Shown here piece by piece: positions 5,231-18,699 of a DNA stretch of 64,000 nucleotides (its first letter is position 1; every line of letters starts with the position of its first letter). The stretch comes from Fluviicola taffensis DSM 16823 (GTDB lineage: Bacteria; Bacteroidota; Bacteroidia; Flavobacteriales_D; Crocinitomicaceae). Position numbers and translations under genes: made by a program. The notes below the pieces were generated by a model. It had not been told where the DNA came from. It saw only the letters and a list, made by a program, of their open reading frames with translations, and searched no databases. The stretch spans positions 1,550,001 to 1,614,000 of the forward strand of contig NC_015321.1 in NCBI RefSeq assembly GCF_000194605.1, given 5' to 3'.

Positions 5231-5266
5231 TATTTAGGGACGTGACGCATCGCGTCCCTAAATATT
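5229..5266. repeat. Palindromic repeat copy 1 (GACGCATCGCGTC family)
   Basis: Fourteen-base arms with the core GGGACG...CGTCCC surround a loop reading TGACGCATCG. The left arm overlaps the last two bases of the ABC-F stop codon and the right arm overlaps the recO stop. It could work as a terminator for both convergent genes, but there is no T run. Related copies lie at 29717-29749 and, inside ileS, at 27357-27389. Confidence 0.75.
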
Positions 5267-5972
5267 AATTAAAAACTGTTCGAATCACTTCCAACGATTT
5301 CATTTTTCGCATGCCACTTATATGAAACTTGTAGTATTCCAACCAAGCATCAATTAAAAGTACACGCTCATTTTTGGGGATAGAGACGGATAAAAAATTC
5401 ATTTTATCTAGTCGCAAACTATCCACCAACCAGTGCAACCAAGGTTCTTCTAAATAAGCTGGTAAAAAAGGCAATTCGTTGGTAAATTTCCCTTCTTGCA
5501 GTTCAAAATATTTCGGATTTTCGTGTTGAATTTCTGGCTGAAACCCTTCTAATTTCGAAACCTGTGCTAACAACCAAATCAGGTAATTGCTAAGCTCTTC
5601 ACTGGTGTTTAACCAATGGATTTCTTCATTCAAAAAATGAAAGAGTTTTTTATCTTGGTGATTGTCTCTCAAACAAATCAGCAATAACTCGGAAATGAAA
5701 AAAGCAATACTCGATTTCAAGGGGTTTCCGACCAATTCATGCAACGGTTCCAGAGCTTGCATTTCGGTTAATTTCAGCAAACTACTATCATTGCGTTTGT
5801 AGTAGGTAATTTCAGCAATTTCTAAAGGAAATAAAATCAATCCTTTCTTCTTCCTCGCTCCTTGAAATAAAAAGGTTTGAAGTCCAGATTCTAAGGTGAA
5901 TAGATTCACTATCAAACTGGATTCTGAATAAGGCGAGCGGGATAAAACGATTGCTTTATCTTGAATTTTCAT
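5265..5972 (-). CDS. recO: DNA repair protein RecO
   Basis: 235 residues. The N-terminal OB-fold reads MKIQDKAIVLSRSPYSESS, then LFTLESG and FQGARKKKG, the usual RecO opening. The rest is helical, with a domain around residues 100-200. RecO mediates RecA loading onto SSB-coated single-stranded DNA in the RecFOR pathway. The zinc-finger cysteines of some RecO proteins are not evident, which is common in this phylum. The start codon overlaps the stop of the upstream porZ-like gene by 4 bases (ATGA), so translation is probably coupled and both genes share the promoter at 8321-8328. Confidence 0.9.
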   Translation of the reverse strand: MKIQDKAIVLSRSPYSESSLIVNLFTLESGLQTFLFQGARKKKGLILFPLEIAEITYYKRNDSSLLKLTEMQALEPLHELVGNPLKSSIAFFISELLLICLRDNHQDKKLFHFLNEEIHWLNTSEELSNYLIWLLAQVSKLEGFQPEIQHENPKYFELQEGKFTNELPFLPAYLEEPWLHWLVDSLRLDKMNFLSVSIPKNERVLLIDAWLEYYKFHISGMRKMKSLEVIRTVFN

Positions 5973-8287
5973 CGGATTACAACCACTTTACCTACCTTCT
6001 TCCCTTTTCCTTCAACCGGTGCAGTCCAAATAAAATAAACTCCAGAACTTACATTTTCACCCGTCAATCGTTTTCCATTCCAAGTTGCAGTTCCCCCATT
6101 TGAAGTAGTTTTATACACCAAATTTCCAGCGGCATCTGTGATCTTTACATCACTGTTGTATTTAATCCCTTGAATGGTAATTGGTCCAAAAAAGTCTGGT
6201 TTCACCGGATTTGGGAAAACGGTTGTGGAAGAGTATTCAGCATCTTCATAAGTTGCATCCGTGCGTAAAGAAACCATCCCATTATCAGTGATAATGAATA
6301 ATTCTCCTGTCAAATGATTGAACTCCATGTCCACGACAACATTGGAAATCATGGGCGAATTGTCTTTGTTATAATTGGCAATTACTTGCTGTCCATCAGC
6401 TGAAATTAAAAACACACCAGATTCTTGCGTTGCAATCCATTTCCGATTTCCACCATCAATTTCTATGTCCGAAATGTAAGAAGTTCCAAGCAGTACTTCA
6501 ACGTTTCCATCATAAGTGACCAATATTTGAGAAGCATCGGTAACTCCAGCTGCGGAGAATAAGCCAGAACTATTGTACAGAACAGCCAATCCATGATCGG
6601 TTCCAATCCAAATTTCATTGTCAAAATCAACTGCTATTGCTGTTACATTTGAAGAAGGCATGTTTCCAGCCCCTTCACCTGTTTGGAGCACTTTAATAAT
6701 ATCATCAGATGTATTTGAAATCGTTCCGTTATCCTTATATCCCATCAATCCTTTTCCATACAAACTAACCCATTTATTACCGTTGTAATCTATGGCTATT
6801 CTTGTAGCAAAAACGTTTGCAATACTCGAATTTGTAGCCATGGAATACCAATTCCCATCAGCAGTTTTGACTTTCAACGGATTAGTAGAATAACCATTAA
6901 CGATCCATAAATTGCCATCGTCATCGTATTCCAACCCTGAAACACAGGCAAAAGTATTGCCCAGACTCGTGTTTTCAATTATTGAATTAGAGGCATTGTA
7001 TACTTCAGTTATTGAATTTCCATTTGTAATACTCAATGCATTGACACAATATCCACCAAGTGCAATTTCCTCCAAATTTTTCGGATTAATCGATGCTGCT
7101 CCAATTGCCCAAGTATTCGTATTCCAGAGGGGTTGGTTCTGCATATCGTATAAATTCCAAACCTCATCCTTCATTGCATAAGCTCCCGACCGACTATAAC
7201 TCAAATCTACACGTTCAATAGACCCCCCGGTAACTATTAGTTTACCATCCCGTCCGCTCAAACTGTAAAATTCGTTTTTCGGAGGACCTTCTTTCGAAAT
7301 TATTTTCGAACTACCATACGAATCGAACTTCACCAATCCATTCATAAAATCAGCAATCCAATACGTATTTGAACCATCAAACACTACTGATTTTATTTCT
7401 GGCAAAGTCAGTGAATAATTTGAAAGAGATAAGAAAACACTCAAATCCGGATTAAACAGAATGTAAGATTCGGAGTAACTAACCCCAAATTTGTTATTGA
7501 TTACCTGAAAATTTGCAATCTCCATGCTAAATTGATGACCAATAAACTCTTGTAATCCAGAAGAGGTAACTTTCATAATGGAATCTCCTCCATACCCCTC
7601 TCTCTTTGCTAGTAAGAATATTTCATTATTAAATAATGATGCTTTCTGGTATGAAATTTCCAAAACAGGAACCTCTACTCGCGCATCAACAGCCCAGTTA
7701 TTTGGATTTCCCAACAAGGGGTTGTTCTCAAAGGCTTTAACCATTCCATCATTATGCAAGGCATAAATCGAATCATTCAAGAACAAAATAGATTGATAGT
7801 TTTTAGGAAATGAAAACGGATTGTATGTATCCTTTACTTCGTGTTTGATTGGATCTAAAACAATAATAGCGAATCCAGTTGCGGCATAAACTCTGCCATT
7901 TCTGACAGTAAATCCATTGATTCGCTTATTACCAGTTATCGATGCAAGTTTGATTGCAGGAATGTTTACAATACTTCCATTGGAATAGAGCTGATCGATG
8001 TTTCCATTTTCATACCCAATGAAAAAGGATTTTGTTCCTGGTTCATAAACGATACAAGAGGTGATAATATCTGAAAGTCCATTTTGATTATTGTATATTT
8101 TGCTTTCACCAGCTGCTTCATCGTATTCAATAACTCCATTTTTTAAAGCCGCAACTGCCAATCCATCACCATAAGCCACATCGATTGCTTGTGACGCTGC
8201 TACGTGCATGCGCCATTGTCCCATACCAAGTTGAGAGAAAACAGCCCCTGAAGCACCTATTAAAACAAGTAAAAGAAAGTAACGCAT
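5969..8287 (-). CDS. porZ: PorZ-like type IX secretion system protein (two-propeller regulator-like)
   Basis: 772 residues from the ATG at 8287. That start gives a clean signal peptide (MRYFLLLVLIGASG, cleavage near FSQ). Upstream in-frame starts overlap a promoter element. The body contains repeated propeller-blade motifs of the two-component-regulator-propeller type, for example YNNQNGLSDIITS, DFDNEIWIGTDHGLAVL, GGNRKWIATQESGVFLI and ITDNGMVSLRTD. The last ~85 residues are a T9SS sorting domain (VFPNPVKPDF ... SGVYFIWTAP). This architecture and the recO linkage match PorZ, which sits on the surface and helps attach anionic lipopolysaccharide to T9SS cargo in Porphyromonas. The role here is inferred from that family. 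Confidence 0.85.
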   Translation of the reverse strand: MRYFLLLVLIGASGAVFSQLGMGQWRMHVAASQAIDVAYGDGLAVAALKNGVIEYDEAAGESKIYNNQNGLSDIITSCIVYEPGTKSFFIGYENGNIDQLYSNGSIVNIPAIKLASITGNKRINGFTVRNGRVYAATGFAIIVLDPIKHEVKDTYNPFSFPKNYQSILFLNDSIYALHNDGMVKAFENNPLLGNPNNWAVDARVEVPVLEISYQKASLFNNEIFLLAKREGYGGDSIMKVTSSGLQEFIGHQFSMEIANFQVINNKFGVSYSESYILFNPDLSVFLSLSNYSLTLPEIKSVVFDGSNTYWIADFMNGLVKFDSYGSSKIISKEGPPKNEFYSLSGRDGKLIVTGGSIERVDLSYSRSGAYAMKDEVWNLYDMQNQPLWNTNTWAIGAASINPKNLEEIALGGYCVNALSITNGNSITEVYNASNSIIENTSLGNTFACVSGLEYDDDGNLWIVNGYSTNPLKVKTADGNWYSMATNSSIANVFATRIAIDYNGNKWVSLYGKGLMGYKDNGTISNTSDDIIKVLQTGEGAGNMPSSNVTAIAVDFDNEIWIGTDHGLAVLYNSSGLFSAAGVTDASQILVTYDGNVEVLLGTSYISDIEIDGGNRKWIATQESGVFLISADGQQVIANYNKDNSPMISNVVVDMEFNHLTGELFIITDNGMVSLRTDATYEDAEYSSTTVFPNPVKPDFFGPITIQGIKYNSDVKITDAAGNLVYKTTSNGGTATWNGKRLTGENVSSGVYFIWTAPVEGKGKKVGKVVVIR

Positions 8288-8320
8288 GAAATATGTTTTG
8301 GTGTATAAACGCATACTCTT

Positions 8321-8328
8321 CAAAATTA
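8321..8328 (-). promoter_or_regulatory. -7 promoter element TAATTTTG for porZ-recO
   Basis: Exact TAnnTTTG on the minus strand, 33 bases ahead of the chosen porZ start at 8287. It overlaps the first candidate start (8323), which is one reason for choosing the internal ATG. No convincing -33 element. Confidence 0.5.
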
Positions 8329-8468
8329 TTGGAAAAATGCGAATGGAACTTGAAAAATCGTTTAAATTTCAGGAAGTTCTGTAATTAGTTTGTGGATTTT
8401 GAATTGTTATTGCAGCTGCGAGCCAAAGAAAAAGAGTTGAATATTCTAAAGCTTTTACAGACGAATTA

Positions 8469-9339
8469 GGCAAACAAGCAACGAAAGTCACAGAATTGTT
8501 TTCGCTCCAAACCAAAAATATATTCGTAAAACTGCATCCAGCATTCTGATCGATTTTGAAAAACAAATAGTCCTTCGGTTCAATCGTTTTAAGTGAGTTC
8601 TCAAATTGAGGTTCTGACGTTCAATGTGATTGATTCCCCTATGCTTGGTAGAATGGAGTTCTTTTGGAACAAGTTCTTTGTAAATATTCAGTTTGTCTGT
8701 TGTGATTTGCTTTGCATCGGACAAGACTAAAGTAGATATGATCTTTTTGAGGTTACTTTTATTTCGTCTGCCAAGCACAATATCTATTACTTCTCTTGTT
8801 TTAGGGTTTAAGGAATCGGCAACACAAACTCGATTATTCTTATTTCCGATATAAGTAAATAACTCATCTACCTGATAAGTTTGCCCGAATAAAATTGGAG
8901 ATGATCTTGTAAGGTGTGTAGCAATCTTCAAAATCCTTTTAATAACGGTAGTGGGAGAAATATTTAATATTCTTCCGGTACTCCTGATTCCACATCCTTC
9001 TTTTGTAAGTTGGATAATTTGTTGGTCTGTGATTAGACGGGATGAATAAACGTATTGTTCGCGCTGGTATTTGAAACACGTTTTACAACGATATTTTTGA
9101 GTATTCTTACTCCATCCTTTTCTGACGCAGGCATTATTACAAAAGTGGCATAGCATGTTAGGTGACGTTTTGATACACCAACAACGCAAATACTACCTTT
9201 AAGGTTGCTATAAAAGACGAAAAGTTACCTTGTGAGAGTAACCTTTCATCTGAATAAACTTCAGTATGTATATTTTTATCTGAAAATCAAATTGTTAGCT
9301 ATTTGGTTTTGAAATAGGTGACAAACTGGAACACTACCC
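8469..9339 (-). mobile_element. IS1-family insertion sequence, copy 1
   Basis: 871 bases, delimited by comparison with the second copy at 14530-15400. Identity begins at GGCAAACAAGC and stops abruptly after ACACTACCC, and both copies have the same length. Only about ten base differences were noticed. The ends (GGCAAACAAGC and, on the other strand, GGGTAGTGTTCC) are at best weakly similar inverted repeats. No 8-9 base target duplication is visible at either end. The right end lies about 14 bases past the stop of the candidate immunity gene. Confidence 0.85.
8488..9156 (-). CDS. IS1-family transposase, copy 1
   Basis: 222 residues from the ATG at 9156 (a TTG-started frame extends to 9189). The N-terminal zinc-finger-like part has CHFCNN and YRCKTC, then a helix-turn-helix with GCGIRSTGRILNISPTTV. 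The catalytic part has QVDELF, TTDKLNIYKEL and HIERQNLNLRTHLKRLNR, closely matching the IS1 transposase C-terminal motif (IERxNLNLRxHLxRLxRxxxxFSKS). It is a single uninterrupted frame, unlike classical enteric IS1, which needs a frameshift. It appears intact and differs from the second copy at only two residues (Leu/Val in DIVLGRR, Arg/Lys in SIRMLDA). Confidence 0.93.
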   Translation of the reverse strand: MLCHFCNNACVRKGWSKNTQKYRCKTCFKYQREQYVYSSRLITDQQIIQLTKEGCGIRSTGRILNISPTTVIKRILKIATHLTRSSPILFGQTYQVDELFTYIGNKNNRVCVADSLNPKTREVIDIVLGRRNKSNLKKIISTLVLSDAKQITTDKLNIYKELVPKELHSTKHRGINHIERQNLNLRTHLKRLNRRTICFSKSIRMLDAVLRIYFWFGAKTIL

Positions 9340-9353
9340 ACTACCACACTATC

Positions 9354-9827
9354 TTACCGAGCTATACTTCTGAAAGAATCAACATTTAAAACTAATGTAT
9401 TGTCATGAAACTTTTCATCCAGCTTTTCAAATAATTTTTCAAATTGAGATTTTAAATCTAATAATTCATCTTCACTGATAATCATTATTAAATTGTATAC
9501 AGCTTGTTGTAAAGTCTTGGATTGATTAGTGACAAATGACGTTAGTATATTCCACAAATCATGAGAAATTAAATTTTTCTTTATCTCTAGGATAAATACA
9601 ATCACACTGACTCTATCGAGTATTTCACTATTATTGGTAAAATCATAAGAAAAACTATTTTTAGCGACAGCTTTTATTTCTTGTTCCAAAAAGATTTGTA
9701 TATCTGCCTTGTGTTCCTCTTTAAATTCCGATATAAAATAGTCTAGAACTTCTATTGATTTATCATAGTAGTCAAGACTACCATAATTCTTTAAGCAATT
9801 AATCAATTGAGAATAATATTTCATCAT
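9354..9827 (-). CDS. Candidate immunity protein for RHS tip A, cytoplasmic
   Basis: 157 residues, almost entirely alpha-helical by composition, no signal peptide, no cysteine-rich or membrane segment. It starts within the stop codon of the RHS fragment upstream (4-base overlap), the usual arrangement of a polymorphic toxin and its immunity gene. No named Imm family is recognised. The lack of an export signal suggests it neutralises a toxin acting in the cytoplasm. Function is inferred from position only. Confidence 0.55.
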
Positions 9828-11176
9828 TTTAGGTTTTTTATAACTGTCGGTTTTCCGATTAAAGAAGCATTAAAAATCATTGTTGAACTACCAGGGAAGC
9901 CAAAAGAAACTCCTTTTTCGTACTTAACATACCACATACCTATTTTCCTTGCCGAATTAAAAACAGTATTTCCACTGCCTGTTCCGGGGATGTAATGAAA
10001 AGTAGATGACATCATAGCAGTATTAGATATATAGGAAGTATATCTAACCACAACATCATAATTACCTTTCTGAATAAATTTAGCATTTGTAATATAAGAC
10101 AATTCTGGTCTTATATGAGGTCCTTCACCAGATGTCTTTAAATCTACTAAATATCCACCTGTGCTTGTAAATTCTTCTGTTGACATTGCACGATAATAAT
10201 ATGAATAAACAGGCTCTGGTGTCCTTTTTGTATCGCCCGATACTAAGGCAAGAGGCAATGCCATAACACCTGCTGCTGCTATAGCTTCTACTGTAATTGC
10301 TGTTCCTGTAGTTGTAGTTGCGGCTGTACCTAGTGGTATTGCAGTTACTGAAGCTTCATTGACGCTGGATTCCTGTGACTCTCTTACTTTGTTTTCGATT
10401 TCTTGTTTCTTAGCAAACCACTGATGATTTTCAAAACCTGATGCTTTTTTAAAACCTTCTTTACCAATACCCTTGAACTTCCCATAAAATTGTGTCTTTG
10501 TGTAACTTCCTTCAGATCTTACTGCAATATATTGAACACCGAAATCTCCAGGTCTTAATTTACTTTCAACAACTCTAGTCATATAACCATTTGCAGAACC
10601 CCTTGCTGCCATTTTATCAGCTTCTTCTTTTGTATAATCACCAAGTTTATCATTCAATAAAATTGGATTATTATCCATGGAGTTATAAGGACTTTGATAT
10701 GGTTGGAAAACTGGGTCTGTACTAAACCATCTTCCAAGCCTTGGATCGAGCATTCGGTAAAAAGTAGTATAACTATTTCCATCACCCTTCACTTCGTTGT
10801 CCATTTCGCTTCCCTGATAGCCATAACGATAATCACCTCTCGCTATCAACGAATAAGAAGTATCTGTATCGGTGCCAACCAGCGTCATATTGGCCAAGGA
10901 GAAAGCAGCACTTCCACTATACTTCACACGCAAATAAGCCTGTGTGGGCGTAAAGTTTCTCGTATGTGTTCCGTTTGTGCTTGTGGTATTCATCAGTGTA
11001 CTCCAGCCTGTTGTTCCATTAGAACTTTGTTCTACCGTGAAAGTTACAGAATTGTTTTCAGTTTGCGTATAGATCAGTTCGTAATTGTCGCTCGGAGTAA
11101 CATCAAAATTGCGCTGAATGGCTGGTGTTTCTCCAGCTACGCGCAGCTTATTGGGTGCACCTGTGAGTACATTCAT
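9824..11176 (-). CDS. RHS core fragment with variable toxin-like C-terminus (cassette A), orphan
   Basis: 450 residues if the first ATG is used, but this ATG is internal to the RHS core shared with the other two fragments, so this is a 5'-truncated gene. Residues 1-118 are nearly identical to cassette B. The RHS-associated core follows (about 118-175: [45 protein letters not shown]). A unique tip follows: a spacer rich in Ala/Thr (about 275-310), then [18 protein letters not shown] and [13 protein letters not shown]. The YRAMS..EF..T pattern faintly recalls ADP-ribosyltransferase-type toxin domains. That is a guess. No export signal or promoter is present, and a hairpin terminator lies directly upstream. 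Confidence 0.7.
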
Positions 11177-11281
11177 ATACGAAGTAGCCCAAGTAAAAAG
11201 AAAACCTATCTACTTTTATAGATAGGTTTTCAGTAAATTAAATTCTCAAAAATTGTTCAGGTGCAGAATTGGAACATTACC
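10821..11281. repeat. 461-bp direct repeat, copy at cassette A boundary
   Basis: Nearly identical to 12876-13336 at a constant offset of 2055 bases. It covers the first ~118 codons of the RHS fragment plus ~105 non-coding bases in front of it: a hairpin, then ATTGTTCAGGTGCAGAATT, then an IS-end-like GGTAATGTTCC on the minus strand. The third RHS fragment shares only the coding part (17021-17390). Confidence 0.85.
11201..11230 (-). terminator. Hairpin terminator in front of RHS cassette A
   Basis: Twelve-base perfect stem AAAACCTATCTA / TAGATAGGTTTT with a six-base loop, followed on the minus strand by CTTTTT. It sits between immunity gene B and the RHS A reading frame, so it should stop read-through into cassette A. 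Confidence 0.75.
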
Positions 11282-11979
11282 TATTTCACATACAACATTA
11301 TATCTAAGGAATTACTATATTTAATATTCCCTTTTTTGTCTTTTAAGGAACTATAAAGCGTTAATTTTTGTTTGCATCTTTGTTTTGGTTTGAATTCAAA
11401 AATAATTTCTGCTTTTTCCTTCTCAAAATAATAGTTTTTAAAGTGTCTTTTTGACTTATTCGTTTCAAGTATGACCGAATCTAAATTGAACTTATAAATT
11501 TTAGGGTCTGCATATAAAAAACGTAGTAGGTAAGTTTTGTTTAGTTGCAAAGTGTCGTTTCCTCCTTCAATCTCATATTCTTTATTTATTAGTGCTCCAA
11601 TTTTTTCAGTTACGTTGCCTAAACTATCAAGATATAAAAAGAAGAATACACTATCTTCTATATTTCTTACTGAATACATATTCAATCCCCCTGATTTGTA
11701 ATACCAATAGTCGCTACCCACTAATTTATCTTTAAAATAAGTTCGAGAATACTCAATGTTTCCATTTTCAAAATAACGTCTTTTAAATCCGTGCTTTTGT
11801 CCATTTGCTTTGAGTTGAGTTAATACCATAATTTTTCCACTTGAATAAAAAGTAGTATCCATGACTGATTCTGAAACCATTGAATTTGAGTTTTCGTTTT
11901 CAGTATTGCTACAGGAATGTAATACAAAAGACAAAATTGAAATGAAAACTATTAAACAATTATTTTTGCTTCTTTTCAT
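11281..11979 (-). CDS. Candidate immunity lipoprotein for RHS tip B (MORN-like repeats)
   Basis: 232 residues from the ATG at 11979, chosen over 12006 because it begins a lipoprotein signal (MKRSKNNCLIVFISILSF, lipobox VLHSC) and has AAAAGAAAAGGG just upstream. After the lipidation cysteine is a Ser/Asn/Glu-rich linker, then MORN-variant-like repeats (SSGKIMVLTQLKANGQKHG, FENGNIEYSRTYF, KSGGLNMYS). The start overlaps the RHS B coding end by 20 bases. A lipoprotein in this position suggests protection against a toxin acting in the periplasm or at the membrane. The pairing is inferred from gene order. Confidence 0.6.
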   Translation of the reverse strand: MKRSKNNCLIVFISILSFVLHSCSNTENENSNSMVSESVMDTTFYSSGKIMVLTQLKANGQKHGFKRRYFENGNIEYSRTYFKDKLVGSDYWYYKSGGLNMYSVRNIEDSVFFFLYLDSLGNVTEKIGALINKEYEIEGGNDTLQLNKTYLLRFLYADPKIYKFNLDSVILETNKSKRHFKNYYFEKEKAEIIFEFKPKQRCKQKLTLYSSLKDKKGNIKYSNSLDIMLYVK

Positions 11980-13231
11980 ACCCTTTTCTTTTAACAAGCG
12001 AACCATGCCAAGATTCTGATTTCATTTTATCTTCCGTTCCAATCTGGCCACAAACTTCACATGAATCTGTTTTAATAATGGCTTTTTTAGTTTCATTATA
12101 TGCCTCACCAATTTTATTTCCAGTTTCAACTGACTCTTTCGCTGTTTTTAAAAAATCTTGTACTTGACCTTTTGTTAAAGAATGCCATGAACCACTTCCA
12201 GGGCTATAACCTCCTGATATAGAAGACCTGCTTAGTATAGCACTTAAATCATCAAAGCTTACAGACCCAACTGCATTTTTTGACCAATCTTGACCGATAG
12301 CACCCGAACCGCCTGTTGAACCACCCATATTGATACCAAAAGAAACTTCTACTCCCAAATCTTTTGGTGTATACCATTCAGAATGAGTGTCGTACTTTTT
12401 ATCTCCACCAAAGAGTACATAATCATAATCTTTAATGTAACGTTTCTCACCATTCCCTTTTATTATTTGTGTCGATTCTTGAACCTTTATTTTTCCTTTT
12501 TTCGAAATTGTGGTTACAGTTACTTTTGCAAAATCATAATAGAAATTTTCTTGGTGAGAGGTTGCTTGACTATCCCAAATTGTGTGTTTAACACCATCAG
12601 TCATAACATCGCTTGACGCAACTGTTACTGTTATGACAGCTTTTCCAGTTTTCTCATTGATAAGAACATTTATATGGTATTCTGTTTCTCCATTAGGGTC
12701 AACAAATAAATTTGGATTATTCAAAAACGCTTTATAAGGAGATTGACTAGGTTGTTTACCTGCTAATGGGTCAATTGTTAGCCACCTTCCCAATCTACTG
12801 TCATACATCCTAGCCCCAAAATCATAACTGTTGCCACTACCTTTCAGTTCATCATCCTTTTCCATGGAGTTAAACCCATAACGATAATCACCTCTCGCTA
12901 TCAACGAATAAGAAGTATCTGTATCGGTGCCAACCAGCGTCATATTGGCCAAGGAGAAAGCAGCACTTCCACTATACTTCACACGCAAATAAGCCTGTGT
13001 GGGCGTAAAGTTTCTCGTATGTGTTCCGTTTGTGCTTGTGGTATTCATCAGTGTACTCCAGCCTGTTGTTCCATTAGAACTTTGTTCTACCGTGAAAGTT
13101 ACAGAATTGTTTTCAGTTTGCGTATAGGTCAGCTCGTAATTGTCATTCGGAGTAACACCAAAATTGCGCTGAATGGCTGGTATTTCTCCTGCTACGCGCA
13201 GCTTATTCGGTGATCCTGTCAATACATTCAT
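11960..13231 (-). CDS. RHS core fragment with variable toxin-like C-terminus (cassette B), orphan
   Basis: 423 residues from an ATG that is internal to the shared core. Residues 1-118 match cassette A. The RHS core follows with GDYRYGFNSMEKDDELKG, ARMYDSRLGRWLTIDP, SPYKAFLNNPNLFVDPNGE. The tip (about 185-423) shares nothing obvious with tips A or C. It has beta-rich segments, a Gly-rich stretch (GGSTGGSGAIGQ, about 305) and a final basic tail after a CEVCG pair that could bind metal. No toxin family is recognised. As in cassette A, it lacks an N-terminal secretion part and sits behind a terminator hairpin. Confidence 0.68.
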   Translation of the reverse strand: MNVLTGSPNKLRVAGEIPAIQRNFGVTPNDNYELTYTQTENNSVTFTVEQSSNGTTGWSTLMNTTSTNGTHTRNFTPTQAYLRVKYSGSAAFSLANMTLVGTDTDTSYSLIARGDYRYGFNSMEKDDELKGSGNSYDFGARMYDSRLGRWLTIDPLAGKQPSQSPYKAFLNNPNLFVDPNGETEYHINVLINEKTGKAVITVTVASSDVMTDGVKHTIWDSQATSHQENFYYDFAKVTVTTISKKGKIKVQESTQIIKGNGEKRYIKDYDYVLFGGDKKYDTHSEWYTPKDLGVEVSFGINMGGSTGGSGAIGQDWSKNAVGSVSFDDLSAILSRSSISGGYSPGSGSWHSLTKGQVQDFLKTAKESVETGNKIGEAYNETKKAIIKTDSCEVCGQIGTEDKMKSESWHGSLVKRKGYEKKQK

Positions 13232-13336
13232 ATACGAAGTTGCCCAAGTAAAAAGAAAACCTATCTACTTTTATAGATAGGTTTTCAGTAAATTAAATTC
13301 TCAAAAATTGTTCAGGTGCAGAATTGGAACACTACC
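12876..13336. repeat. 461-bp direct repeat, copy at cassette B boundary
   Basis: Partner of 10821-11281. It ends at GGAACACTACC, the same motif that ends both IS1 copies (GGAACACTACCC at 9328-9339 and 15389-15400). Confidence 0.85.
13256..13285 (-). terminator. Hairpin terminator in front of RHS cassette B
   Basis: Identical 12-base stem and loop to the one at 11201-11230, again followed on the minus strand by CTTTTT. It lies between the Xre-like gene and the RHS B frame. Confidence 0.75.
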
Positions 13337-13389
13337 CAAACAAATGTCTGGGCTTTAAAAAGTAACCTTGAATAAATGCTAAACTTTAC

Positions 13390-13908
13390 TTAAACACTCA
13401 CCATATTACGAACATGACTTTTTTCTTGTTTTCTTAAATCACTATTCGTTAGAATTTCATGTTCCTTTTCTTTTTCTAATAATCTAAACCATGTGATTGC
13501 TGGAATTATTTTATTGGAGTGTATTTCCAGACGAATCATCACTTTTTCACTTGGTTTACGATGTTTATTGAGAATTAGGCTCAATTCCGTTTCGGCAATA
13601 TCTATATCTTTTGCAAACTCTTTATTCTTCTTATTTAATGTCTCCAAATACCCTCTTAAAAAGAATCCAAAAGAGTGTTTTGCATCATAGGTAGGATTCT
13701 CCAAATAATCTTCTATTTGATATTTTAACTGCAACAAACGAGACAGAAGCAACTGTTTTGGAGTAATTGACTGCTGTATGTTCTTACGCATTTCATTCAA
13801 CTGCAAATCAGATTCTACTTTTTGATTTGCAGTTAATTTATTTCTAAAAACAAAAGATTCAGCCAACTCCTTGTTAGTATACTTATCATTCAACTTATCT
13901 TTTTTCAT
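13390..13908 (-). CDS. Xre-like helix-turn-helix protein, candidate antitoxin
   Basis: 172 residues. The N-terminal half is helical and charged. About residues 85-150 carry an HTH-like segment: FFLRGYLETLNKKNKEFAKD, AETELSLILNKHRKPSE, MIRLEIHSN. This follows the Xre pattern in which a scaffold helix is followed by EFA, then L..ILN..R.PS. It overlaps the upstream GNAT-like gene by 4 bases. The gene order (enzyme first, HTH second) matches GNAT/HTH or HigBA-like toxin-antitoxin pairs. The role is inferred. The tip of the HTH helix is less canonical than usual (DIDIAETEL). Confidence 0.6.
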   Translation of the reverse strand: MKKDKLNDKYTNKELAESFVFRNKLTANQKVESDLQLNEMRKNIQQSITPKQLLLSRLLQLKYQIEDYLENPTYDAKHSFGFFLRGYLETLNKKNKEFAKDIDIAETELSLILNKHRKPSEKVMIRLEIHSNKIIPAITWFRLLEKEKEHEILTNSDLRKQEKSHVRNMVSV

Positions 13909-14363
13909 AACTCATATTCCTTTAAAATATCCAACAATGATTGCCCCTCTAAAAACACCTGTCTACCAGCATCTAACATTCCATAACAAGTCATGTAGTG
14001 CCCTTTTAAAATGGTTTTTGGTACTAATGAAACACAACCTTCAATACCATACTTTTTCATTGCTTCTTTACAAGCAAATGCAATTAAAGTTCCTGTTATG
14101 CGTTCGTATTTTTTACTTTTTCCACGATTCTCTTTAGAAACAGCCAATAACCTTATTTCAATTCGCTTTTCGTTTTTGTAATGTACACATGACAACAATC
14201 CTAAGACTTCATCTTTGAGAACTAGTTTGTAAACATTATTTCCTTTTTCTGTTTTCCAATTAAAATAGTATTGAGCTTTGCTTATCTTTTTGTAATCATC
14301 ATCATCCAGTGATTTGATTTTAACTTCAAAGTCCTTACCACTTTTTATCTCCGTCAGGTACAT
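13905..14363 (-). CDS. GNAT-like acetyltransferase, candidate toxin of a toxin-antitoxin pair
   Basis: 152 residues from the ATG at 14363 (a TTG two codons earlier is in frame). The layout resembles a compact GNAT fold: an N-terminal strand-helix with FNWKTEKGNNVYKLVLKD, a beta hairpin VLGLLSCVHYKNEKRIEIRLLAV, then the acetyl-CoA-loop-like ENRGKSKKYERITGTLIAFA. The loop is a loose version of motif A (R/Q-x-x-G-x-G/A), so the assignment is tentative. The gene overlaps the downstream Xre-like gene by 4 bases. A -7 element lies only four bases before the ATG, so its mRNA may be leaderless. Confidence 0.5.
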   Translation of the reverse strand: MYLTEIKSGKDFEVKIKSLDDDDYKKISKAQYYFNWKTEKGNNVYKLVLKDEVLGLLSCVHYKNEKRIEIRLLAVSKENRGKSKKYERITGTLIAFACKEAMKKYGIEGCVSLVPKTILKGHYMTCYGMLDAGRQVFLEGQSLLDILKEYEL

Positions 14364-14366
14364 AAT

Positions 14367-14374
14367 CAAAGATA
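14367..14374 (-). promoter_or_regulatory. -7 element TATCTTTG of the GNAT/Xre pair
   Basis: Exact TAnnTTTG on the minus strand ending three bases before the ATG at 14363. If used, transcription would begin at or near the start codon. Confidence 0.5.
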
Positions 14375-14529
14375 CGAAATTTCTTTACAAAAAATGTAAA
14401 TTTTATTCAAATTTCTTGCAATTAATTACTTAGCTGAAAATCATCTGATGCCGATTTGGATCCACTTATCGCTATTCTTTCATGTCGTTTTACACGTATT
14501 TCTCCGTTGAAGATGGATAGCTGTCATTT

Positions 14530-15400
14530 GGCAAACAAGCAACGAAAGTCACAGAATTGTTTTCGCTCCAAACCAAAAATATATTCGTAAAACCGCATCC
14601 AACATTTTGATCGATTTTGAAAAACAAATAGTCCTTCGGTTCAATCGTTTTAAGTGAGTTCTCAAATTGAGGTTCTGACGTTCAATGTGATTGATTCCCC
14701 TATGCTTGGTAGAATGGAGTTCTTTTGGAACAAGTTCTTTGTAAATATTCAGTTTGTCTGTTGTGATTTGCTTTGCATCGGACAAGACTAAAGTAGATAT
14801 GATCTTTTTGAGGTTACTTTTATTTCGTCTGCCAACCACAATATCTATTACTTCTCTTGTTTTAGGGTTTAAGGAATCGGCAACACAAACTCGATTATTC
14901 TTATTTCCGATATAAGTAAATAACTCATCTACCTGATAAGTTTGCCCGAATAAAATTGGAGATGATCTTGTAAGGTGTGTAGCAATCTTCAAAATCCTTT
15001 TAATAACGGTAGTGGGCGAAATATTTAATATTCTTCCGGTACTCCTGATTCCACATCCTTCTTTTGTAAGTTGGATAATTTGTTGGTCTGTGATTAGACG
15101 GGATGAATAAACGTATTGTTCGCGCTGGTATTTGAAACACGTTTTACAACGATATTTTTGAGTATTCTTACTCCATCCTTTTCTGACGCAGGCATTATTA
15201 CAAAAGTGGCATAGCATGTTAGGTGACGTTTTGATACACCAACAACGCAAATACTACCTTTAAGGTTGCTATAAAAGACGAAAAGTTACCTTGTGAGGGT
15301 AACCTTTCATCTGAACAAACTTCAGTATGTATATTTTTATCTGAAAATCAACTTGTTAGCTATTTGGTTTTGAAATAGGTGACAAACTGGAACACTACCC
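14530..15400 (-). mobile_element. IS1-family insertion sequence, copy 2
   Basis: 871 bases, about 99 percent identical by eye to copy 1 and in the same orientation. No target duplication is visible (left flank GTCATTT, right flank GATTTGATA). The right end is 15 bases past the stop of immunity gene C. Together the two copies bracket RHS cassettes A and B and the GNAT/Xre pair like a composite transposon. Confidence 0.85.
14549..15217 (-). CDS. IS1-family transposase, copy 2
   Basis: 222 residues from the ATG at 15217. Same motifs as copy 1: zinc-finger cysteines, helix-turn-helix, VDELF, TTDKLN and IERQNLNLR. The only residue differences seen are Val for Leu in DIVVGRR and Lys for Arg in SIKMLDA. 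It is intact, so both copies could still be active. Confidence 0.93.
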   Translation of the reverse strand: MLCHFCNNACVRKGWSKNTQKYRCKTCFKYQREQYVYSSRLITDQQIIQLTKEGCGIRSTGRILNISPTTVIKRILKIATHLTRSSPILFGQTYQVDELFTYIGNKNNRVCVADSLNPKTREVIDIVVGRRNKSNLKKIISTLVLSDAKQITTDKLNIYKELVPKELHSTKHRGINHIERQNLNLRTHLKRLNRRTICFSKSIKMLDAVLRIYFWFGAKTIL

Positions 15401-15415
15401 GATTTGATACATTAC

Positions 15416-16048
15416 CTATTCTAGTGAATATCCGTAAACTTTGTCATTTGACTTTTCAAAAGAAAATGTAATCAATATCCTGTTCTTGCCGTTAGTCCTT
15501 GATAAACTGATATATTTTTCACCATTTACAGACATCAAACTCAATCCTTCGAATTTGTTATATTTTGATTTCAATAATGTTTTAACATTAGATTTCATAT
15601 CTTCATAGCTAATTTTAGACTTAATTTCCGTACTTAGTAAAGCATACATTTTTTTGTAATTTTTAGTTTGTAGCTCATCTACAATTTTATCAAAAATCTT
15701 CCTCTTTGCCGAAATTATTATCCATTCATTTTTATCAAATGACACTAACTCCTGATTCGAAATATTTTGAATTGAATAATTATCGAAATGAACACCCTCT
15801 TTACTCAAATTTGACACAAAATCATATAATACCTTACCATAAAACAAAATAGAATCACTTTCGCATTGTGTAGTGAGAACTACATTTCTCTTATTGTTAT
15901 CACTTGTGCTTTTTAGTGCAATTAAACAACTATTCTCATCAATAGTTGTTTTAAGAGACTTATCGAGTATCGAGGTCTCCTTTAAGTTACAACTTGAAAA
16001 AAAAATAACTTGAGCAATTGCCAGAATAATTAAAAATTTATTTTTCAT
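15416..16048 (-). CDS. Candidate immunity lipoprotein for RHS tip C
   Basis: 210 residues. It opens with MKNKFLIILAIAQVIFFSSC, a type II signal with lipobox FSSC, so the mature protein should be a lipoprotein starting at Cys20. The rest is mixed alpha/beta, with KIFDKIVDELQTKNYKKMYA and SKISYEDMKSNVKTLLKS, somewhat like small DUF3887-type secreted domains. No family is claimed. Its start overlaps the stop of the RHS C tip by 4 bases. Position and lipoprotein nature suggest immunity to a toxin acting outside the cytoplasm. Confidence 0.55.
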   Translation of the reverse strand: MKNKFLIILAIAQVIFFSSCNLKETSILDKSLKTTIDENSCLIALKSTSDNNKRNVVLTTQCESDSILFYGKVLYDFVSNLSKEGVHFDNYSIQNISNQELVSFDKNEWIIISAKRKIFDKIVDELQTKNYKKMYALLSTEIKSKISYEDMKSNVKTLLKSKYNKFEGLSLMSVNGEKYISLSRTNGKNRILITFSFEKSNDKVYGYSLE

Positions 16049-16848
16049 TGTGTTTCATCAATTTTAGTTTGAACTTTAACTCCTTTACCTTTATTAAATA
16101 TTGGAATAGTGAGGCTTGGGGTAATTCCTATTGTTACAGACTGCTGACCACTACTAGAAGTTTGAACACTTCCTGAATATGGGCCTCTACTAACTTCTAC
16201 TCCAACTTCAGTCGTTACTTTACTATTATCCCCATTCCTTATATTCCCCTGAAACTCTATTCCTCCCGAAATACCTATTTCAGCTTTTGTATAATCTATT
16301 ACTGTCTCATTTTTTAAACCTGTAGAAAGAGTACTTTCCCCTCCTCCTTCCTTCAATGACAATCCTACTGTTTGAGAAGTACTTCCGATTGTAACTGTAA
16401 CCTGTAGTGAAATCTCTCCAGATTGAAAAGGAGCATACGAATAATCTGGGCGATCAGGATCAGCCCAAGTTCCCTTATACCAAGGTTCATTATCTAACTT
16501 TTCCTGAGCCAATTTAGCATCCTCTCTTTTCTTTATTTTTACATTATAGGAGTTATTTATATCCCCAGAGAAAAAATAATTTAAATATTCAACAGTTGGT
16601 TTGGCATCTGGAGTAGCTTTCTTTAATGAATAACCTGATCTAGTACCATCCTCCATTCTTCCATAATAATCTATTTGTACTACTGGACCACTAGGATCAT
16701 CAACAGATTTCCAAACAACTTTTATAATATCTGCTTTTAAACCTTCAACAGTATATACTTGTAATTTAGATTGATGTAATTCACCAGCCTCTGTATAATA
16801 TTTTGTGACAACAGTTATTTTTCCTTCTGCACCTTCTAGTTCAATCAT
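16045..16848 (-). CDS. Variable tip of RHS cassette C, separated from its core by a frameshift
   Basis: 267 residues in the annotated frame. The first residues, MIELEGAEG, are the normal continuation of an RHS core (family members read PYxFSxNxxIxxIELEGxEG). The true protein begins in the upstream frame (16859-17611), and one extra A near 16865-16867 breaks the junction. The tip is beta-rich, with alternating hydrophobic residues and Gly/Ser turns (KAEIGISGGIEFQ, TEVGVEVSRGPYSGSVQT, TIGITPSLTIPIF), which would suit a beta-structured or membrane-acting effector. No toxin family is recognised. If translated alone from 16848 it would lack the RHS core. Confidence 0.55.
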   Translation of the reverse strand: MIELEGAEGKITVVTKYYTEAGELHQSKLQVYTVEGLKADIIKVVWKSVDDPSGPVVQIDYYGRMEDGTRSGYSLKKATPDAKPTVEYLNYFFSGDINNSYNVKIKKREDAKLAQEKLDNEPWYKGTWADPDRPDYSYAPFQSGEISLQVTVTIGSTSQTVGLSLKEGGGESTLSTGLKNETVIDYTKAEIGISGGIEFQGNIRNGDNSKVTTEVGVEVSRGPYSGSVQTSSSGQQSVTIGITPSLTIPIFNKGKGVKVQTKIDETQ

Positions 16849-16858
16849 AAAAATTGGA

Positions 16859-17611
16859 CTATTTACTTGAAAATTGATAGGGTGTTAGTTCAGAAAAACT
16901 TTTTGCCAACGGATCAATCGCAAAGAACCTACCAATACGAGGGTCGTGCATACGATATTCAAAATTAATGCTGTTTCCTGCTCCTTTCACCTCGTCATCA
17001 TGCTCTTGACCTTGGAAGGAATAACGATAATCACCTCTCGCTATCAACGAATAAGAAGTATCTGTATCGGTGCCAACCAGCGTCATATTGGCCAAGGAGA
17101 ACGCTGCACTTCCACTATACTTCACCCGCACATATGCCTGTGTTGGTGTAAAATTCGTGGTTTGTGTTCCGTTCATAGATGTGGTATTCAAAAGTGTACT
17201 CCAGCCAGATGTTCCGTTAGAACTTTGCTCTACCAATAAAGTTACCGAATTATTTTCAGTTTGTGTATAGGTCAGTTCGTAATTGTCGCTCGGAGTAACA
17301 TCAAAATTGCGCTGAATGGCTGGTATTTCTCCTGCTACGCGCAGCTTATTCGGTGATCCTGTCAATACATTCATATACGAAGTTGCCCAACTAGTACTCC
17401 AACCATCGGTGTTTTGAGCAACAATCGTTCCTATTTCAAAAGTCGAGGTGTAAAAATTTACACCTGTCATTCGTACAAAACGCATGTTGTCAATTACATA
17501 AACTCTCCCAGAAACCAAACCAGCATTCCCTGGTACAAACATAGCTTGAATTGAAACACTGCCAACTGGTGCCGTAACAGTCAGTGAAACCCATGCTAGC
17601 GCGAGTGTCAC
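16859..17611 (-). pseudogene. RHS core fragment of cassette C, 5'-truncated and frameshifted at its 3' end
   Basis: 250 codons from a GTG that is not a natural start: the frame runs back only to a stop at 17624-17626, through a palindrome at 17597-17621. It extends ~85 residues further upstream into the parent RHS protein than cassettes A and B ([38 protein letters not shown]), then has the shared segment [20 protein letters not shown] and the RHS core ([35 protein letters not shown]). It ends ...[11 protein letters not shown]-stop. Deleting one A from the AAA of that Lys codon restores [18 protein letters not shown] and joins it to the next frame. Confidence 0.75.
17021..17390. repeat. Coding part of the RHS repeat, third copy
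   Basis: Matches the coding halves of 10821-11281 and 12876-13336, from ATAACGATAATCACCTCTCG to GAAGTTGCCCAA, with more base differences than A has from B. At 17390 it continues into RHS sequence, whereas A and B switch to the hairpin/IS-end boundary. This marks the cassette breakpoint. Confidence 0.8.
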
Positions 17612-17621
17612 ACTCGTGCTA
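17597..17621. repeat. Short palindrome at the 5' break of the RHS C gene
   Basis: Eleven-base arms TAGCGCGAGTG / CACTCGTGCTA around TCA, with one G-T type mismatch. The homology of the RHS protein appears to end inside it, and the frame hits a stop 3 bases beyond. It differs from the GACGCATCGCGTC family. Confidence 0.65.
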
Positions 17622-17718
17622 ATTTATCACCATTTTTAATGACTCAACGAAACAGTTGTTCCTCCGCTATTGCATGAATTGGCTCACAGATCACTATTAT
17701 TGAAAGTCTTGGATTGTT

Positions 17719-18597
17719 TCAAGCCTTCTTCTTGTGTAAATCATATACAATTCCATCCGATAAACCGATTTTTGGAACATACATTTCTTTGCAATTCAAG
17801 GCATTCATGCAGACGCGGAAAATTTCCAGCGCTGGAACGATGACATCTGCTCTGTCTGGCTTTAATTGGAACAAATCCATGCGTTGCCCCACACTGAGTG
17901 GTTCGAGCTCTTTATACAGCTTATTCATAGCTCTAAGCGTAACGGGAGCTTTCTCTTTAAAACCCAAAATCTTGTGAATCTTGTTGATGTTTCCTCCAGT
18001 TGCATACACCAAGTGTGGATTGTCTTCCACGTGTTCTTTGATCCAGAGTTTCAATTCGCGCCAATGATCTTTTTCAACTTTGTTCTTCAACATACGAACG
18101 GTTCCAATGTCGAAGCTTTTTGCTGCAACGCGTTTTCCGTGTTCAAATACGTTAATTTCTGTTGATCCTCCGCCTACATCTATCACCAAATAAGGCTTTG
18201 AAAGCTCAATATCTAATAAGGCAAAAGTCCCGAAAATTAAACGTGCTTCTTCGTCTCCTGATATGATTTCAATCTCGATTCCAGTATTTCGTTTGATTTG
18301 TTGAATAATCTCTGGTCCATTTTTAGCATCACGCATGGCGCTCGTAGCACAAGCACGTATTGCCGACACATTGAAAATATCTGCAATGAGACTAAATGCT
18401 TTCATCGTTTTGATAAAGTCTTCTGCTTTTTGGATACTAATTTCACCTGAATCGAAGACTTCTCCTCCCAATCTCAAAGGAAGACGCGTGTAGGAAATTT
18501 TCTTCACATAAGGGTGTCCATTCTCCTTGGCGATTTCACCGATTAACAATCGAGCTGCATTCGATCCAATATCTATGGCTGCGTATTTCTTTGGCAT
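17719..18597 (-). CDS. ppx: Exopolyphosphatase/guanosine pentaphosphate phosphohydrolase family (Ppx/GppA)
   Basis: 292 residues, the single two-lobed ASKHA domain form, shorter than the ~500-residue enterobacterial enzymes that carry an extra HD-like region. Phosphate-1 loop AAIDIGSNAARLLIGE (5-20), RACATSAMRDAKNG (about 84-97), the ISGDEEARLIFG loop, the phosphate-2 loop VIDVGGGSTEI (about 138-148) and YATGGNINKI (about 199) are all present. Family enzymes release orthophosphate from polyphosphate or convert pppGpp to ppGpp. Which activity applies cannot be told. A TAATTTCG variant -7 element lies just upstream. The gene sits immediately next to the degenerate RHS locus. Confidence 0.92.
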   Translation of the reverse strand: MPKKYAAIDIGSNAARLLIGEIAKENGHPYVKKISYTRLPLRLGGEVFDSGEISIQKAEDFIKTMKAFSLIADIFNVSAIRACATSAMRDAKNGPEIIQQIKRNTGIEIEIISGDEEARLIFGTFALLDIELSKPYLVIDVGGGSTEINVFEHGKRVAAKSFDIGTVRMLKNKVEKDHWRELKLWIKEHVEDNPHLVYATGGNINKIHKILGFKEKAPVTLRAMNKLYKELEPLSVGQRMDLFQLKPDRADVIVPALEIFRVCMNALNCKEMYVPKIGLSDGIVYDLHKKKA

Positions 18598-18647
18598 GGT
18601 TTCCGAAATTAGCTAAAAAGCTTTAATCCCATTCATTGTTTAAAACA

Positions 18648-18683
18648 AAAAATGCCGCCCGTCAGCTGACGGGCGGCATTTCA
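18648..18683 (-). terminator. Intrinsic terminator of the large T9SS gene
   Basis: Perfect palindrome ATGCCGCCCGTCAG / CTGACGGGCGGCAT followed on the minus strand by TTTTTGTTTT. Confidence 0.9.
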
Positions 18684-18699
18684 ATCGAATCAATTCATT

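Follow-up and report, generated by a model that had tools for sequence, protein, structure and literature searches.

IS1-family-like left ends fused to orphan RHS tips in an array of candidate toxin-immunity units of Fluviicola taffensis

In the present study we have analysed a window of 64,000 nucleotides from Fluviicola taffensis DSM 16823, in which two 461-base repeats join an RHS tip to ~90 non-RHS bases. By sequence, these ~90 bases are a truncated left (transposase-proximal) end of an IS1-family element and not a purpose-built boundary. The IS1 lineage is strongly linked to RHS genes and keeps one orientation towards them, and in orthologous loci the upstream sequence has been replaced up to base 1 of the left end. 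We propose that the RHS core and the IS probably bracket exchangeable modules, the 461-base repeats heading displaced units in a relic RHS array.

The repeat pair and the array

Base-by-base alignment of the two copies (10821-11281 and 12876-13336) is free of gaps and shows 14 differences in 461 positions, which agrees with the near-identity reported in the preliminary description of this DNA. The differences are unevenly placed, with 0 in 10821-11072, 13 in 11073-11186 and 1 in the last 95 bases. In each copy a 14-pair hairpin and its T run stand ahead of an orphan RHS tip. The RHS homology extends to 11195 and 13250, and therefore ~17-19 of the 105 bases described as non-coding are RHS-derived. 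The IS/RHS junction is located near 11193-11196 and 13248-13251, and the third copy continues there as RHS sequence at 17390, fixing the breakpoint as had been suggested. The tips are mosaic, both 461-base copies being identical over their first 252 bases and one of them matching the third copy, unlike the other, over approximately the last 60 RHS bases before the junction. Past exchange between RHS tips is thus indicated, in support of the idea that the RHS half offers homology for recombination. A chance repeat or an assembly artefact was rejected, since the C-terminal parts behind the copies are unrelated and relatives have the same end.

All features of the array lie on the minus strand and are given here from high to low coordinates. 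The third RHS fragment (16859..17611) has no IS end between it and the upstream RHS codons, and is also cut from its core. It is followed by a 267-aa ORF in a different frame (16045..16848), the candidate C-terminal part of the third unit, with no family, and by a 210-aa candidate immunity gene (15416..16048), assigned by position and with a weak DUF3887 match. IS1-family copy B occupies 14440..15399 (transposase ORF 14549-15250), its left end lying at 15399 and its lower limit being approximate. The first truncated left end (13245..13336) comprises a terminal repeat (13315-13336), 30-odd bases and the hairpin (13255..13286), and is fused to an RHS tip (12876..13250) with 91% identity to the third copy over 373 nt. 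The corresponding 423-aa ORF (11960..13231) contains the RHS tip and a variable C-terminal part, a candidate toxin, and the 241-aa ORF behind it (11281..12006) is a candidate immunity gene whose stop codon touches the next IS end. This second left end (11190..11281) is 98% identical to the first, with its hairpin at 11200..11231, and adjoins a second fused RHS tip (10821..11195; 90% to the third copy). The ORF list and the domain search place there a 450-aa ORF (9824..11176) with a different C-terminal part, again a candidate toxin, and a 157-aa candidate immunity gene follows (9354..9827). IS1-family copy A (8465..9338, transposase ORF 8488-9189) comes last; it is 99% identical to copy B over 875 bp and has lost its 3' flank. 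The C-terminal parts matched no known toxin family and the small ORFs gave no family match above cut-off; the candidate immunity genes are assigned by position.

TIGR03696 scored above cut-off in the 423-aa and 450-aa ORFs, which puts an RHS-associated core before the variable C-terminal part, and reached 29.3 bits in 16859-17611 (cut-off 32.5). The delivery part of a full-length Rhs protein is absent, both ORFs beginning within the tip, and no full-length RHS frame was found at the locus. Among 59 genomes the sole long match to the tips inside a full-length frame belongs to another species (G013), where the homologue lies within a 4627-aa frame at 71% identity. In this genome no matching active core was found, the compared full-length RHS genes sharing only a short core motif (best 77% over 119 nt). 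Orphan modules follow a main rhs gene that has their core, and the present units do not.

The left end and the IS1-family elements

The non-RHS part of the repeats aligns over 92 columns with the left ends, intact or broken, of the IS1-family elements L014 and L089, and this alignment bears out the IS-end-like sequence noted earlier. What is left in each repeat is ~90 bases of left end, with neither the transposase gene nor the two ends of an IS1 element. Allowing for up to 2 mismatches, the 22-base end has four sites in the 4.63-Mb genome, every one of them on the minus strand of this array; the 105-base part occurs twice. Searched against 59 genomes, the 105 bases gave matches in four, namely this genome, G007, G017 and G051; the match in G007 is real and adjoins an IS1 remnant, and those in G017 and G051 (23-26 bases) are taken as chance. 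The 20-base end was also sought by consensus in 15 genomes, where the matches outside this locus are likewise taken as chance. The same left end with a covarying hairpin is present in relatives (C1:62.6-63.6 kb and a same-genus genome). There it lies upstream of a transposase gene, and the 105 bases as the promoter region of an ordinary gene, the finding by which the silencing role in the preliminary description would have fallen, can be discarded.

The hairpin consists of 14 pairs (4 G-C) followed by TTTTT on the minus strand (13286-13255 and 11231-11200), a stem-loop with a U run on the transcribed strand. It can be regarded as a putative intrinsic terminator, in keeping with the built-in terminator first reported. 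A fold as good or better was obtained with 4 of 200 shuffles of each copy, and among the four sequences compared six pairs are altered on both sides. No known RNA family covers the hairpin in window positions 8000-18700; two weak matches listed elsewhere are below gathering scores.

The transposase of copy B shows 80.1 bits with PF03400 (cut-off 24.1) and 127.5 bits with NF033558 (cut-off 100), as an IS1-type DDE transposase. The left-end layout is fixed, with a terminal repeat, often a terminator, and then an inner copy of the repeat, whose match exceeds all shuffles in 22 of 30 cases. The outer-to-inner distance is 153-159 or 143-147 bp in 41 of 41 chosen left ends, a count of recognisable left ends in which the outer end was sometimes picked among several motifs by place or match, and so not fully blindly. 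The two classes, ~156 and ~145 bp, differ by one helical turn. Omitted from this count were loci at a contig edge and the six of 36 loci in which the motif GGTARYG is absent (L098, L107, L112, L120, L121 and L123); L112, with the variant GGTGATG, was included in the 3' flank alignments, the 44-end set and the comparison of orthologous pairs. The sets of 34 (right-repeat search), 45 (stacking), 44 and 41 (spacing) left ends were hand-picked from the scanned loci. The left end is clear. As for a right inverted repeat, the best inverted match behind the transposase did not exceed those of shuffles, either in copy B or over the 34 elements as a whole, short partial matches being seen by eye, and the 3' limits of the elements, taken from 3' flank alignments, are approximate only. 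IS1-family copies within one genome are mostly 41-73% identical, the window pair reaching 99%; such low identity is more in line with copies that arrived together with cassettes than with multiplication by transposition.

RHS linkage, replacement at the left end and the proposed exchange

For at least 13 of 21 IS1-domain hits in 59 genomes, an RHS core on the same strand precedes the hit by up to 3 kb, against 0.04 expected (0.039), a count that rests on the RHS matches listed, from which some, including some of G031 and G037, are absent. In a wider scan an RHS core is found up to 3.5 kb upstream on the same strand in 25 of 36 testable loci, each scanned locus being counted once and two distant ones included where the flank sufficed. 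The two counts overlap and are not independent (L094, L096, L101, L105, L108 and L117 are records in both). Locus L113 presents an alternating array of RHS, IS, RHS tip, IS and RHS tip, and in L084 (G003) an orphan tip has isolated left ends in front of it. Stacked tips were found in 13 of 45 ends, against 1.16 expected, in agreement with the exchange proposed below.

Comparison of orthologous loci from other Bacteroidota gave three pairs in which base 1 of the left end is the point where homology resumes. In two of them (L109/L110 and L104/L114) the upstream RHS gene is also common to both members and only the toxin-immunity stretch differs; L097/L099 has no common RHS gene upstream.

We propose a mechanism in which C-terminal displacement, and hence array growth, would result from homologous recombination at two places, the RHS core and the IS, perhaps with circular intermediates such as those that Jackson et al. 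proposed for enterobacteria (PMC2935791, in its accessible portion). The IS behind each immunity gene would act as a second homology arm, the module between the RHS core and the IS left end being swapped as a unit, and left ends would remain as stacked remnants after the exchange. The 461-base repeat would represent such a remnant, a left end reduced to terminal repeat and terminator with loss of the transposase and fused to an RHS tip, and the two repeats would head two displaced (orphan) toxin-immunity units. One IS/RHS-tip junction may then travel into new units with different toxins, as this window illustrates. The hairpin comes from the IS, where it would protect the transposase gene against transcripts arriving from outside. 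In the array it would end transcription running on from the ORF in front before the orphan tip is reached; the resulting silence would be a by-product, in addition to the lack of a core. A silencing action of the hairpin is plausible, as a secondary effect.

A less probable explanation, which we consider unlikely although it is the strongest competitor, is that RHS arrays are a safe landing zone in which the IS1 lineage favours places behind immunity genes or beside older ends of its kind and has no role in exchange, the breakpoints meeting the IS end merely because the shared sequence begins there. A different, rve-type transposase between units of G013 C16 shows that other IS types also enter such arrays; the stacked ends suggest insertion beside older ends; and some IS1 copies lie away from RHS genes, 11 of 36 loci and, among the matches listed, 8 of 21 hits having no RHS link by the same tests. 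Against it stand the strict co-orientation, with no RHS core on the opposite strand in the 36-locus scan and none for the 21 hits among the matches listed, and the replacement, in L109/L110 and L104/L114, of a stretch that has conserved brackets on both sides.

It is quite doubtful that insertion or joining of toxin-immunity modules at the left end is the work of the transposase, which would make the element a machine for handling cassettes instead of a passive homology arm. Junctions at base 1, stacked left-end remnants, the fixed outer-inner geometry and catalytic residues kept in 40 of 40 near-full copies would fit this possibility, but a second end flanking the module was looked for and not found, and in L109/L110 divergence is higher over the first 200 bp of the IS than over the remainder, which fits a crossover within the IS.

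Similarly improbable is the proposal of the preliminary description that the hairpin of a boundary unit silences the cassette until the latter is recombined to a place downstream of an active core. In its favour, the hairpin resembles a terminator of the correct orientation, the region has no more promoter-like sites than expected by chance (36 against 37.9 in shuffles) and both hairpins are identical while the adjoining 114 RHS bases differ at 13 sites. Against it, a broad IS1-family lineage often carries a terminator at this position of its left ends, upstream of transposase genes, and no active core with a long matching sequence was found in this genome as partner.

Known systems and biological meaning

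The E. coli Rhs H-repeat (H-rpt) belongs to the ISAs1 family. In the present elements the transposase is of the IS1 family by NCBIfam, with no ISAs1 model among the matches listed; they were found, moreover, in Bacteroidota and with an outer-terminator-inner left end. The H-repeat is likewise an IS-like sequence residing habitually within Rhs arrays, its transposition activity not having been observed according to the available part of PMC3032704. The elements share with the IS1 family the transposase domains PF03400 and NF033558, both above cut-off, and differ from it in a second terminal-repeat copy, which precedes the transposase at a constant distance and is often separated from the first by a terminator, and in the lack of a clear right inverted repeat. 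We know of no such outer-inner repeat layout in classical IS1.

Orphan (dissociated) rhs-CT/rhsI modules and C-terminal displacement have been described (Jackson 2009, PMC2935791; Poole 2011, PMC3150448; Koskiniemi 2014, PMC3967940), and as far as the accessible sections of these papers go, tip exchange is explained there by core homology, that is, on one side. The present array resembles those modules in its displaced RHS tips with short common core-side stretches, variable C-terminal parts and a small ORF behind each, and in its tandem arrangement with signs of exchange in the common stretch. In contrast, each tip of the 461-base repeats is fused to an IS1-family left end with a putative terminator, and no main rhs gene heads the array. 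The E. coli EC93 orphan region is co-transcribed with the main genes (Poole 2011, PMC3150448, in the text available), whereas here a putative terminator lies between units.

No RHS-linked IS1 lineage in Bacteroidota was described in the literature searched, which comprised titles and abstract openings and left most subscription papers outside its coverage. We regard as improbable the broader view that this Bacteroidota IS1-type lineage is a cassette-handling part of RHS toxin loci, whose left end joins or exchanges modules through the transposase or as a selected homology arm. The constant distance between outer and inner repeats, in two classes, suggests a way of controlling an IS1-like transposase of which we found no description in the same literature. 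Remnants of terminal repeat and terminator would provide a sequence marker for counting past swaps, and an RHS-linked IS with its left end at the far edge of the replaced module represents a testable candidate for the second homology arm.

Array layout and truncated IS1-family left ends

The window (C1:1550001-1614000) comes from a genome of one contig, 4,633,577 bases long, and the array is read on its reverse strand. It begins with the third RHS fragment (17611-16859), followed by two ORFs (16848-16045 and 16048-15416) and IS1-family copy B, whose left, transposase-proximal end is at 15399. Next come two small ORFs (14369-13390), two units (13336-11282 and 11281-9339), and IS1-family copy A (9338 down to 8465). 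In each unit, ~90 non-RHS bases lead into an RHS tip, which is followed by a variable C-terminal part and then a small ORF. The two small ORFs at 13390-14369 have weak matches, to a HigA-like helix-turn-helix in one and GNAT-like in the other, and are possibly a toxin-antitoxin-like passenger. Judged by eye, an imperfect palindrome (GCGCGAGTGTCACACTCGTGC, 17590-17625) marks the cut in the third RHS fragment, and similar strings lie behind IS copies in two other loci (L101 and L119). Neighbouring genes encode RecO (5265-5972) and the type IX secretion protein PorZ (5969-8323); a stretch at 22254-24287 matches PF10136, a 'site-specific recombinase' family.

The units open with the 461-base repeats (13336-12876 and 11281-10821), which show 14 differences. 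The repeat stands as first reported; RHS homology, however, runs 17-19 bases past the ORF start into its ~105 non-coding bases, leaving a non-RHS part nearer 87-91 bases. In this genome and its genus, the transposase of IS1-family elements is preceded by a terminal repeat (GGTARTG plus ~16 bases), often a hairpin with a T run inward of it, and a second terminal-repeat copy immediately ahead of the transposase start. An element at 62.6-63.6 kb of the same contig (L014) and a broken element of a relative (L089 in G007) align with both window copies over all 92 columns, the hairpin occupying identical columns 51-82. Across this set of four, which includes one nearly identical pair, 50 of 52 hairpin cells pair and six pairs are changed on both sides, a pattern abolished by a one-base shift of the pairing partner. 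Given this alignment and the shared hairpin, the non-RHS part of the repeats is, as judged from sequence, an IS1-family left end truncated directly past its predicted terminator. The intact copy B carries its own hairpin, differing from that of the truncated ends.

The architecture of the left end was analysed on hand-picked examples, by comparing the terminal 17-mer with the sequence 40 to 400 bp further in and taking its best match there. The inner repeat lay at 153-159 in 37 of the 41 chosen left ends and at 143-147, about one helical turn away, in the remaining 4, while 62 of 820 shuffled cores landed in 153-159. The sequence between the repeats is nearly unrelated across left ends (median ungapped identity 33%), and a terminator-like hairpin (-8 kcal/mol or better) lies there in 26 of 44 left ends versus 10 of 264 shuffles. 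We infer that the transposase may bind both repeats, possibly forming a loop, and that its gene would be shielded by the terminator. D103, D162 and E187 (alignment numbering), conserved in all 40 near-full transposase copies, are taken for the putative catalytic triad. The limits of the right end, unlike those of the left, are approximate. At the 3' end, 20 of 21 bases in copy B (14526-14580) and 22 of 22 in L014 (L014:12718-12739) match an RHS tip, so the transposase ORF closes with RHS-like sequence.

Linkage of the IS1 lineage to RHS genes

With the transposase alignment A1 as query, 46 loci were recovered from the genome collection, including two distant ones (L138, L139). Upstream DNA of 3 kb or more was available for 36 loci. 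In 25 of these, an RHS-core profile built from the RHS loci gathered here placed a core within 3.5 kb upstream on the same strand, and on the opposite strand in none; within 3.5 kb downstream, 2 of 34 loci had a core, each time co-oriented with the IS. When every IS1-domain match in 59 relatives was compared with the TIGR03696 matches listed, at least 13 of 21 (0.039 expected), and at least 11 of the 14 near-full ones, were preceded on their own strand by a core at a distance of 1.4-2.6 kb. The two tests overlap, some loci being counted in both, and exceptions amount to 11/36 in the first and, among the matches listed, 8/21 in the second. Downstream of the IS1 copy at 62.7 kb lies an RHS fragment; upstream there is none. 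A toxin part plus an immunity gene would fit into the core-to-IS distance.

RHS orphan arrays in general are already known, and PMC3032704 places an IS-like H-repeat in those of E. coli; in a literature search of incomplete coverage we found no description of the RHS-linked IS1 lineage. In one relative (G013) another transposase type occupies the place of this lineage in an RHS array. Two rve-type transposase genes in opposite orientation (L082:99-890 and L082:3392-4675, G013 C16) lie there behind both small ORFs. Near arrays of this kind, matches to the Flavo-1 RNA (RF01705) reach or exceed the gathering score (L083:4518-4616, minus strand; L084:5189-5276, plus; L089:4234-4306, minus), directly ahead of an orphan RHS tip in L083 and L084.

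Proposed exchange of modules between RHS core and IS

All-against-all comparison of 40 oriented elements gave three locus pairs from different organisms that share downstream DNA and resemble orthologous places: a Tenacibaculum pair (L109/L110, 5800 bp), a Muricauda pair (L104/L114, 2877 bp) and a Flavobacteriales MAG pair (L097/L099, 743 bp). In all three of these few pairs the alignment starts at base 1 of the left end. Such a boundary is expected if the IS serves as an arm for exchange, and equally if it is merely a shared feature. In L109/L110 and L104/L114 the RHS gene further upstream is homologous and the intervening stretch, where toxin and immunity genes would be expected, is not. Replacement between two conserved brackets in these two pairs favours a model in which RHS core and IS bracket a toxin-immunity module, the IS supplying the second homology arm. 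Upstream RHS homology was absent in the comparison of L097 with L099, whose left end sits, by eye, inside apparent RHS coding sequence.

The IS copies of L109 and L110 are 84-86% identical over the first 200 bp and 91-100% per 100 bp thereafter, save one 87% stretch. Immediately upstream of its IS, L110 carries a 98-base left-end piece (89% to the L109 end), and a comparable piece is present in L116 (from 104 bases upstream, 81% to the L118 end). In L084, the block it has in common with L108 ends one base short of a stacked tip. Stacked tips accompany 13 of 45 left ends versus 1.16 expected, with none on the opposite strand. The IS copies of L083 and L091 are 83% identical from ~310 bases inward and differ in their left ends, as if these had been exchanged.

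Probable origin of the array and possible role of the terminator

Since both window units share one IS/RHS-tip junction but not the genes downstream of it, the simplest account is a single origin of this junction, then copying with exchange of the remainder. The RHS halves of the repeats have a mosaic make-up drawn from copies 1, 2 and 3. L113 holds a fuller array of this kind (RHS, IS, RHS tip, IS, RHS tip), and in G003 (L084) isolated left ends precede an orphan RHS tip. Displacement via circular intermediates was proposed by Jackson et al. (PMC2935791); if tip, toxin, immunity gene and IS formed a circle that integrated by the core, the gene order of the array would result.

The preliminary description also had the hairpin silencing a cassette. 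Its orientation agrees: the predicted terminator faces the RHS tip, its stem ending 23 bases before the first ATG, and read-through from the preceding ORF would stop there, ahead of the tip. However, the window tips are without core and no long match to them was found in an active gene of the genome, so that this role is unlikely to be realised in the present genome. In E. coli EC93, according to Poole et al. (PMC3150448), the main genes and the orphan region are transcribed together; a terminator separating the units would therefore matter for the expression of immunity genes too.
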